DNA of 64,000 nt from Gemmatimonadaceae bacterium (GTDB lineage Bacteria > Gemmatimonadota > Gemmatimonadetes > Gemmatimonadales > Gemmatimonadaceae): positions 461,897 through 525,896 of the forward strand of contig JABAQJ010000002.1 of the NCBI GenBank assembly GCA_019186945.1, written 5' to 3'. Shown here piece after piece: positions 48,504 to 50,993 of this stretch (its first letter is position 1; every line of letters begins with the position of its first letter). Below the pieces are notes generated by a model. It had not been told where the DNA came from. It did not search any database and was given only the letters and a program-made list of their open reading frames with translations. The position numbers were made by a program, and so were the translations under genes.

Positions 48504-49478
48504 CTAGTACGATGACGGCTCTCCCGACGGGCCCGGTCGAACGGGCGACTGGCAATGAGTACACGACGCACCATGCGCCTGCGACAGCGAGAGAATCTCC
48601 GAGAGTGGTAGGGGGCCTTTCCCAATACACTCGGCCATCGCCACACCGCTGGATGTGCCAATACGGGTCGCACCGCTCGCTATCATGCGAAGCGCGGTTG
48701 AGCAGTCACGCACCCCGCCAGAGGCCTTGACCCCAAGGGCGTCACCCACGACCAGGCGCATCAGGGCGACCGCTTCTGCGGAGGCGCCTCCGGCTGGGTG
48801 GAAACCCGTGCTGGTCTTTACGAAGTGCGCCCCGCACTCCTTCGCCAATGCGCTCGCCTTGATGATCTCGACCGGCGTCAGAACGGCAGATTCGATGATG
48901 ACCTTTACGAGCCGGCCGCCACTACCGCGGACAACGGCGGTGATGTCGTCGGCGACATGCCGCCAATCTCCTCCCTTGATGTGTCCGATGGCTGCAACCA
49001 TATCGATTTCGGTTGCCCCCTGGTCTACGGCCAGTGCCGCCTCGTTCTGCTTGATCCGGGACGCCGACGCACCCAGAGGAAATCCGACCACGGTGGCGAG
49101 GCCAACCCCGGATCCTCCTAGGGCGGTGGCGCAGTGCGGCACCCACACCGGGTTCACACACACCGCAGCGAAGCGCTGCTCGCGTGCTTCCTGGCAGAGC
49201 GCGTCGATGTCGGCGTGCGTGGCTTCAGCCTTGAGCAGGGTATGGTCGATGAAATCGGTAATGCGCTCTGCACGTCCGTCGAGGCGGGGCCGATGCGATG
49301 CGGATGGCGAACCATTTTCTGGCGATGGGCCGATGGCTGCTGCAACAGGGAGATGAGAGAGGATGGAAGCGGCGGCGTTATCTTCCTTTTCGGGGGGGGC
49401 CCCCTGCCGGCTGCCCAAATCTCGTGCCGCCAGCTCCGACGCCACCCTGGCCGCCAGTTCTCTCAGCCGCTCGCTCAT
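48504..49478 (-). CDS. deoC: Deoxyribose-phosphate aldolase with N-terminal encapsulation-like extension
   Basis: The protein has 324 residues, about 75 more than usual DERA. ATG 49478 overlaps the EutN-type stop (ATGA), so the long form is translated. Residues 2-22 (SERLRELAARVASELAARDL) form an amphipathic helix. A 50-residue Ala/Pro/Ser/Gly linker then precedes the barrel (ITDFIDHTLLKAEATHADID). Key residues lie in GLATVVGFPLG, LVKVIIESAVL and HFVKTSTGFHP (Schiff-base Lys near 220). It cleaves 2-deoxyribose-5-phosphate to glyceraldehyde-3-phosphate and acetaldehyde. A helix-plus-linker is how enzymes are targeted into bacterial microcompartments; the adjacent vertex genes support that reading. 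Confidence 0.92.
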   Translation of the reverse strand: MSERLRELAARVASELAARDLGSRQGAPPEKEDNAAASILSHLPVAAAIGPSPENGSPSASHRPRLDGRAERITDFIDHTLLKAEATHADIDALCQEAREQRFAAVCVNPVWVPHCATALGGSGVGLATVVGFPLGASASRIKQNEAALAVDQGATEIDMVAAIGHIKGGDWRHVADDITAVVRGSGGRLVKVIIESAVLTPVEIIKASALAKECGAHFVKTSTGFHPAGGASAEAVALMRLVVGDALGVKASGGVRDCSTALRMIASGATRIGTSSGVAMAECIGKGPLPLSEILSLSQAHGASCTHCQSPVRPGPSGEPSSY

Positions 49479-49807
49479 CGTGGCGGCTCCGTGCTTCCGC
49501 TGGCGCCATCCGCAACTGCTCTGCCTCCCTCCGCGACGTGGAGCTGGACGTCGTCCACGACGCCCGCGATCACCGCCTGCACGGGAATCCGGTCATTCCT
49601 GAACAGCGTACGCGCCGCGTTCCCCTCCTGCACAATCAGCACTCGCTCGCCAACACCCACTCCGACCACATCCAGCGCGATCACCTCGGCCCCACCCTCT
49701 TCCGTGCCATCCAATGCCAGACGCTTCACGAGCAGCAACTTGTGCCCGCCAAGGTTCGGATGCCGATGTGTCGCGATGACGTCACCCACAACACGTGCGA
49801 GGTACAC
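49475..49807 (-). CDS. EutN/CcmL-family microcompartment vertex protein (first)
   Basis: GTG 49807 has GGAG 6 bp upstream and gives the family opening YLARVVGDVIATHRHPNLGG; 110 residues result. A TTG at 49822 is also open, but an in-frame TGA lies just above it. Further family features are KLLLVKRLALDG, DVVGVGVGERVLIVQEGNAA and a final AVIAGVVDDVQ. Pentamers of these proteins cap the vertices of bacterial microcompartments. It is coupled to deoC (ATGA). It is distinct in sequence from the second copy, so two vertex types may be made. Confidence 0.9.
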   Translation of the reverse strand: MYLARVVGDVIATHRHPNLGGHKLLLVKRLALDGTEEGGAEVIALDVVGVGVGERVLIVQEGNAARTLFRNDRIPVQAVIAGVVDDVQLHVAEGGRAVADGASGSTEPPR

Positions 49808-49876
49808 GAGAGCTCCAGCCAATATGGTTCAGCGTGCATGACGCCCATGAAAGCTCGCTGCCGGACACGGCGCGGT

Positions 49877-50179
49877 CTACTCTCGCACCGCCAATCCGTC
49901 CGCCAACTCGCAACGGTCCACCCTGGCCACGATACCGGCGTCCACTGCCACGAACGGCTCCGCAAGAGTGAGCGTCGCTTCACGTGACGTCACGTAGACC
50001 ACGACTTCACCCGGGCCCGCCCCTATCCCGTCTACAGCGACGAGCGGCTTCCCTGCCATGGCCCCATCCGCACCCAGCGGCTGAATCCACTGCAGCGTGA
50101 CGCCAGCGAGCGTCTCCTGCTTCACCGTGGCCACCACGCGGCCGATTACCCTGGCAAGTTGCAAAATCGTCTCCACCAT
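49877..50179 (-). CDS. EutN/CcmL-family microcompartment vertex protein (second)
   Basis: ATG 50179 is preceded by ACAGGACAC and gives 100 residues. It begins VETILQLARVIGRVVATVKQ, then LAGVTLQWIQPLGAD, VAVDGIGAGPGEVVVYVTS and VDAGIVARVDR, the same one-domain OB-like barrel as the first copy. It lies 69 bp upstream of that gene and 31 bp after rhomboid. No hexameric shell protein (BMC-H) is in the window, so shell facets would need genes elsewhere. The N-terminus is a few residues longer than in the first copy. Confidence 0.9.
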   Translation of the reverse strand: MVETILQLARVIGRVVATVKQETLAGVTLQWIQPLGADGAMAGKPLVAVDGIGAGPGEVVVYVTSREATLTLAEPFVAVDAGIVARVDRCELADGLAVRE

Positions 50180-50210: not shown

Positions 50211-50993
50211 TCACCGCGCGTCGGGATCGAAAGCCGCTCGGGTGTCGCCTAACGCCACGCGCCGGCGATGCAGTGTGTCGTCGACGAAAAGCCTAACCAT
50301 CAGCACGCCTGCCACGAAACCGCCCACGTGCGCCCAGACCGCCACACCACCGGAAATCCCAGGCTGCAACGCCGTCAGTTGCGGAATCGCGGACAGCAGT
50401 TGCCACCCGAACCACCACAGCAATACCAGCCAGGCCTGGATCGGGATCACCTTCCAGAAGATTATGAAGATGAACAGCATGCGCACGCGAACTCGCGGAT
50501 ACAACACCAGATACGCTCCAAGAACCCCGGAAATCGCGCCGGAGGCCCCCACCGTCGGTACTGGAGAAGCCGGATCCATGAAACCGTGCACGCCGGCAGC
50601 GATCAGCCCGCACATCAGGTAGAACAGGAGGAAGCGACCGCGCCCCATGCTGTCCTCGACGTTGTTCCCGAAAACCCAGAAAAAGAGCGCGTTGCCCAAC
50701 AGATGCACCCAGCTGCCATGCAGAAACATGGAGGTCAGCGGCGTGACCGCGTTCACCGGCTCGTTGTCCACGAGGCAGGCAATTCCTCGACCGATGGGTA
50801 CCGAAAAACCTATCGGACGCGTATGAAAAAGCTCGGCCGGAACCATCCCGTAGTTGCACACACTGGCCGCCACCTTGTATGCGTCCAGCCCTGCCCCCTG
50901 AACGAGCACCCAGACTGCAGCCATCGCCCCCAACAGCAGGTAAGTAACCACCGGCGTTCGGATGGTCGGGTTCTCGTCGCTGAGCGGTATCAT
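50211..50993 (-). CDS. Rhomboid-family intramembrane serine protease
   Basis: The 260-residue protein has about six to seven helices. The family WVHLLGNALFFWVFGNNVED precedes the catalytic Ser in TVGASGAISGVLGAYL. The His is in VAVWAHVGGFVAGVLMVR. It cleaves transmembrane substrates in the inner membrane. The insert of about 45 residues between helix 1 and the HGSWVHLLGN loop is usual for this type. It precedes the EutN genes by 31 bp on the same strand and is divergent from dnaK by 210 bp. Confidence 0.92.
   Translation of the reverse strand: MIPLSDENPTIRTPVVTYLLLGAMAAVWVLVQGAGLDAYKVAASVCNYGMVPAELFHTRPIGFSVPIGRGIACLVDNEPVNAVTPLTSMFLHGSWVHLLGNALFFWVFGNNVEDSMGRGRFLLFYLMCGLIAAGVHGFMDPASPVPTVGASGAISGVLGAYLVLYPRVRVRMLFIFIIFWKVIPIQAWLVLLWWFGWQLLSAIPQLTALQPGISGGVAVWAHVGGFVAGVLMVRLFVDDTLHRRRVALGDTRAAFDPDAR

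Follow-up and report, generated by a model that had tools for sequence, protein, structure and literature searches.

Why does the gene for a deoxyribose-5-phosphate aldolase (DERA), deoC, share an operon with two genes for vertex proteins of a bacterial microcompartment (BMC) shell? The arrangement lies in a 64,000-nucleotide stretch of a Gemmatimonadaceae genome (contig JABAQJ010000002.1, positions 461,897 to 525,896; hereafter the window), and the source genome of 3.95 Mb has an estimated completeness of 100%. On the minus strand, the order is a rhomboid gene, EutN-b, EutN-a and deoC. We consider it very likely that this operon is a satellite of one dispersed microcompartment encoded over at least three loci, a nucleoside/deoxyribose metabolosome resembling the published SPU compartments.

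Both EutN genes encode recognizable BMC-P vertex proteins. EutN-a (49475..49807, minus strand) and EutN-b (49877..50179, minus strand) match PF03319 at 82 and 77 bits, respectively (cut-off 25), and both match solved BMC-P pentamer proteins, with the Haliangium shell protein 5v74 as the closest solved relative of each. The two proteins are 37% identical and their genes are separated by ∼70 bp; the only overlap is that between EutN-a and deoC (48504..49478, minus strand), where the deoC ATG overlaps the EutN-a stop codon (ATGA). The preferred start of EutN-a is the GTG at 49807, which has GGAG before it, while a TTG upstream at 49822 is possible (49475-49822). The original prediction, made from the sequence of the window, had described this overlap, the second and distinct EutN-type gene, and a window lacking genes for BMC-H, aldehyde dehydrogenase (AldDH) and alcohol dehydrogenase, and these points hold, with family searches finding no BMC, AldDH or iron alcohol dehydrogenase gene in the window.

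Where, then, is the rest of the shell? Searching the whole genome yields two BMC-H genes (PF00936) and three BMC-P genes (PF03319), all above curated cut-offs. The BMC-H genes are on contig C6 (C6:1343-5188), in a locus comprising BMC-H1, BMC-H2, an acylating AldDH, PduL and a YbgC-like thioesterase, which bears out the proposal that the hexamer genes had been split from the EutN-deoC locus. The search for BMC-T, also part of that proposal, returned none in the genome, as both PF00936 genes are single-domain BMC-H. The best family for the AldDH is TIGR02518, acetaldehyde dehydrogenase (acetylating), although its 536 bits fall under the curated cut-off of 620. The expected terminal helix is present as a helix-like peptide after a linker at the AldDH C-terminus, judged by eye only, and PduL has a helix-like peptide at its N-terminus. 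The third EutN gene is found near 110 kb on C6, its ATG overlapping the stop codon of the cytidine deaminase gene (cdd) behind phosphopentomutase (deoB), in an alr-deoB-cdd operon. With BMC-P as its only kind of shell gene and BMC-H on a different contig, the window locus is a satellite in the published sense, in which one kind of shell gene is distal from the others (PMC4207490, PMC8217296). Two further features of the BMC-H locus were noticed. At its C-terminus, BMC-H2 (L006:4351-4833) carries a conserved helical domain, KVVELR..AR....FPIKGR..A.A.RDELL..F, which comes after a disordered linker, has no Pfam match and is perhaps a lumen-side binding domain. In most relatives that were checked, PduL in the BMC-H locus is followed by a YbgC/FadM-type acyl-CoA thioesterase (L006:1343-1771).

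A satellite of two BMC-P genes plus an aldolase with an encapsulation-peptide-like extension is described for Haliangium ochraceum (HO)-type compartments (PMC8217296), and the compartment may instead be of this type. The BMC-P triplet and the affinity of the vertex proteins to the Haliangium BMC-P agree with such an assignment. However, Haliangium has three BMC-T (PMC4207490) and this genome none, PduL is present here, the third BMC-P is tied to deoB-cdd, and the AldDH falls in another subfamily than the AldDH of the consolidated loci discussed below. We regard an HO-type compartment as unlikely, and return to the SPU-like metabolosome and its proposed cargo.

DeoC, of 324 amino acids, is a DERA with N- and C-terminal extensions. 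The NCBIfam equivalog model TIGR00126 (deoC) matches from residue 74 at 240 bits (cut-off 117), leaving ∼71-75 extra N-terminal residues, in line with the ∼75 first noted. The catalytic residues D159, K221 and K251 are invariant across 13 relatives, and Foldseek aligns the protein with DERA structures at TMt 0.93-0.97. An AlphaFold2 model, with the 13 relatives aligned, has a helix at residues 3-23 (pLDDT ∼70), disorder at residues 25-68 (pLDDT <50), the barrel (pLDDT >90), and helices at 292-310; the helix and linker are encoded at 49410..49472 and 49275..49406 (minus strand), respectively. Mean column identity is 0.38 in the helix, 0.14 in the linker, the lowest in the protein, and 0.68 in the barrel core. 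Judged by conservation, the N-terminus joins a conserved helix to a linker whose sequence drifts freely. As modelled, this fits the form of an encapsulation peptide, a short terminal helix followed by a disordered linker, for which amphipathicity alone is weak evidence.

Does this helix belong to the compartment? A profile built from PduL N-termini only scores the window DeoC helix at 12.5; the 99th percentile of the null is 6.4-8.3. Thirteen shell-bearing DeoCs score 4.0-23.6, with 12/13 at 9.9 or more, while 14 shell-less DeoC orthologues score at most 4.7, and none reaches 9.9 (Fisher p 7e-7, relatedness ignored). The helix itself is present in all 13 examined genomes that keep the EutN pair in the window arrangement. 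With this and the two BMC-H genes, the check that could have refuted the original prediction came out in its favour. In most sequences, the PduL profile misses the C-terminal helix of AldDH. Alternatively, the compartment is real and DeoC is not its cargo, in which case the N-terminus would be an extension of a kind usual in DERAs and the EutN pair would just happen to adjoin a housekeeping deoC. The DERA of Thermotoga maritima, which has no shell, carries ∼40 residues ahead of the aligned core, and rhomboid-deoC linkage occurs without EutN. Yet the DeoC helix resembles, by profile match, the helix on PduL from this same system, shell-less orthologues that keep these neighbours have either lost it or retain it in decayed form, and shell-linked DeoCs of other phyla share the architecture. 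We therefore think it quite improbable that DeoC stands outside the compartment.

From the genes, their domains, their genomic distribution and the helices they share, we infer encapsulation, a substrate, a flux and a fate for NADH. The predicted shell would consist of two BMC-H and three BMC-P proteins without BMC-T, with DeoC, the acylating AldDH and PduL each recruited through a terminal amphipathic helix. DNA-derived nucleosides would be deaminated by Cdd and phosphorolysed by thymidine phosphorylase, DeoB would yield deoxyribose-5-phosphate, and the compartment would degrade deoxyribose without leakage of toxic acetaldehyde. Thymidine phosphorylase and Pta are present in the genome, and a family search of the genome found no acetate kinase; acetyl phosphate from PduL is therefore probably returned to acetyl-CoA by cytosolic Pta and then respired. 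The pathway might instead be built around another aldehyde, for example from ethanolamine or a lactaldehyde precursor, with deoxyribose use as a side activity, as the AldDH does not reach the curated cut-off of TIGR02518 and the deoxyribose substrate is deduced from sequence. On the other hand, no aldehyde-making enzyme other than DeoC was found alongside the shell genes, and the third BMC-P is coupled to cdd in the 12 relatives checked, and to deoB as well wherever the contig extends to it. A different aldehyde substrate is thus very unlikely.

The proposed deoxyribose metabolosome probably has a fourth enzyme, RpiB-2, as cargo. The genome has two RpiB (PF02502) genes, neither near shell genes, and RpiB-2 (C1:384445) lies 126 kb from deoC with no adjoining shell gene. 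Its N-terminus, LITERDV...TPAALDVARKLGI, is the module that ends PduL (PduL-tail profile E 7.8e-10). The module is retained in RpiB-2 of three other shell genomes (G029, G081, G015) and is carried by the RpiBs of consolidated loci (E 6e-5 to 0.016). The stretches of shell-less genomes that were examined contain neither RpiB-2 nor its landmark genes, and so carry no weight either way. The shared pattern, LITERDV...TPxARDxAxxLGI, is visible in an RpiB-2 N-terminus (L217:1216-1932) and in PduL C-termini, and the module is weakly like the EutQ N-terminus (E 0.03, below cut-off).

The distribution of these genes among relatives sets shell-bearing and shell-less genomes apart. EutN is found in 25/298 genomes, nearly always in three copies, and PduL in 14/26 shell genomes compared to 0/272 others. 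The three-locus layout is repeated in different genera and families of this phylum; all three loci were found in 10/15 genomes, and the gaps fall in assemblies that are broken up or incomplete. In most shell-less relatives, deoC directly follows the rhomboid gene, beside dnaK. The shell-less relatives have no EutN pair, and the DeoC helix is absent apart from relics in two genomes, G225 and G198. The rhomboid-family gene of the window (50211..50993, minus strand, co-directional and named by eye from sequence) is accordingly a conserved neighbour, kept in both kinds of relatives, and not a part of the compartment. That most relatives lack shell genes, and that relic helices exist, could suggest that the dispersed shell genes are remnants in decay, from which a compartment is no longer made, but all the shell and cargo genes keep open reading frames that are conserved between different genera and families, with BMC-H1 about 80-93% identical between genera, which makes decay hardly credible.

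How the scattered layout arose can be approached from the DeoC tree and from six other genomes of the phylum (G020, G050, G119, G124, G175, G220). The shell-less rows require four state changes on the DeoC tree, so shell genes have, as this tree reads, been lost or gained several times; the shell-less G225 shares its genus with the shell-bearing G271, and where relic helices sit nested next to shell-bearing rows, loss is the favoured direction. The six genomes contain a consolidated set, RpiB-DeoC-(unnamed protein)-BMC-H-BMC-P-AldDH-BMC-T-BMC-P-BMC-P, either undivided or split in two. On a tree of few columns, the three BMC-P classes separate from one another, and scattered and consolidated layouts group together by class; in G130 a consolidated-type locus lies 1.6 kb from rhomboid/dnaK. 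The simplest reading is that one ancestral locus may have become scattered. Between DeoC and BMC-H, the consolidated loci encode a 212-aa protein (L085:6296-6934) with no Pfam match, the end of which resembles a degenerate BMC domain by eye. A contig labelled Deltaproteobacteria UBA9160 (L136) carries rhomboid-EutN-EutN-deoC with a DeoC 66% identical to that of the window; mis-binning and transfer are indistinguishable in this case, and we did not use it as evidence.

Several points weigh against a dispersed deoxyribose metabolosome, beyond the Thermotoga extension already described. Of the complete metabolosome core (AldDH, alcohol dehydrogenase of PF00465, phosphotransacylase), AldDH and PduL are present and the PF00465 enzyme is absent from the genome, although zinc-type alcohol dehydrogenases were not searched for; because of this absence, NAD+ recycling is unexplained. 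A PF00465 match at C4:380906 is AroB and falls below the cut-off. The hydrophobic moment of the DeoC helix reaches p<0.05 in only 3/13 sequences, and we dropped it as proof of a targeting peptide. The two shell-less genomes G225 and G198 keep a relic helix, and the DeoC tree offers four independent pairs, one of them on well-supported branches, which are too few events for significance in an independent-pairs test and, with only one well-supported pair, leave the direction of change unproven. Finally, both the particle and the encapsulation of DeoC are predictions from the genes.

The C-terminal extension of DeoC also follows the shell. A pair of cysteines in the tail, within the motif H302-x3-C306-x2-C309 (48552..48575, minus strand), is present in 13/13 shell-bearing relatives and 0/14 shell-less orthologues, and is possibly a metal or redox site. 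The H-x3-C-x2-C stands near a C-terminal Tyr. In other phyla, shell-linked DERAs have Cys pairs in the N-terminal linker instead of the C-tail, and a Cys pair outside the DERA barrel was seen in 12/13 shell-linked loci compared to 4/67 other loci; the shell-linked DeoC loci noted for Cys pairs are L141, L142, L148, L164, L173, L202, L205, L210 and L213. We tentatively suggest, as a possibility that is open to doubt, that the system is a respiratory rather than a fermentative nucleoside metabolosome. Such a compartment would do without iron alcohol dehydrogenase, acetate kinase and BMC-T, pass acetyl phosphate to cytosolic Pta, and have its parts coupled singly to steps of deoxynucleoside breakdown (BMC-P with deoB-cdd, the BMC-P pair with deoC, BMC-H with AldDH-PduL). 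The His-Cys-Cys tail would then be an element for metal or redox chemistry that is particular to compartment DERAs, and the counterpart of the linker Cys clusters in other shell-linked DERAs.

How does this system compare with those already known? The name SPU was introduced in 2014 for compartments that include DeoC and RpiB, one of the first examples being a Gemmatimonadetes single-cell genome (PMC4207490), and the set was expanded in 2021 (PMC8217296); their proposed role is the use of DNA breakdown products. The present system shares with them a DeoC-type aldolase (PF01791), an acylating AldDH and PduL, while SPU loci, as described there, unite RpiB, DeoC and shell genes that here are distributed over at least three distant loci, with RpiB-2 far from deoC. 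Scattered FRAG shells have been reported from Gemmatimonadetes without an obvious aldehyde-producing signature enzyme (PMC8217296, main text). The BMC-P triplet, shell genes at several sites, the host phylum, and an AldDH near some shell genes are all similar to FRAG, but here a DERA takes the place of the aldehyde-producing enzyme. Likeness to HO lies in the satellite composition and the aldolase extension. Our literature search found no paper tying phosphopentomutase to a microcompartment shell. DERA compartments and FRAG shells are both already published; what appears to be new, as far as these sources extend, is the connection of the two, in which deoB-cdd acts as the feeder. If a DERA with a targeting helix, supplied by the DeoB deoxynucleoside route, is the aldehyde source for FRAG shells, their function becomes directly testable. 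The shell-less Gemmatimonadota, which have an orthologous DeoC and the same dnaK/rhomboid neighbours but lack the EutN pair, the intact helix and the Cys-pair tail, offer a clean comparison for this purpose.
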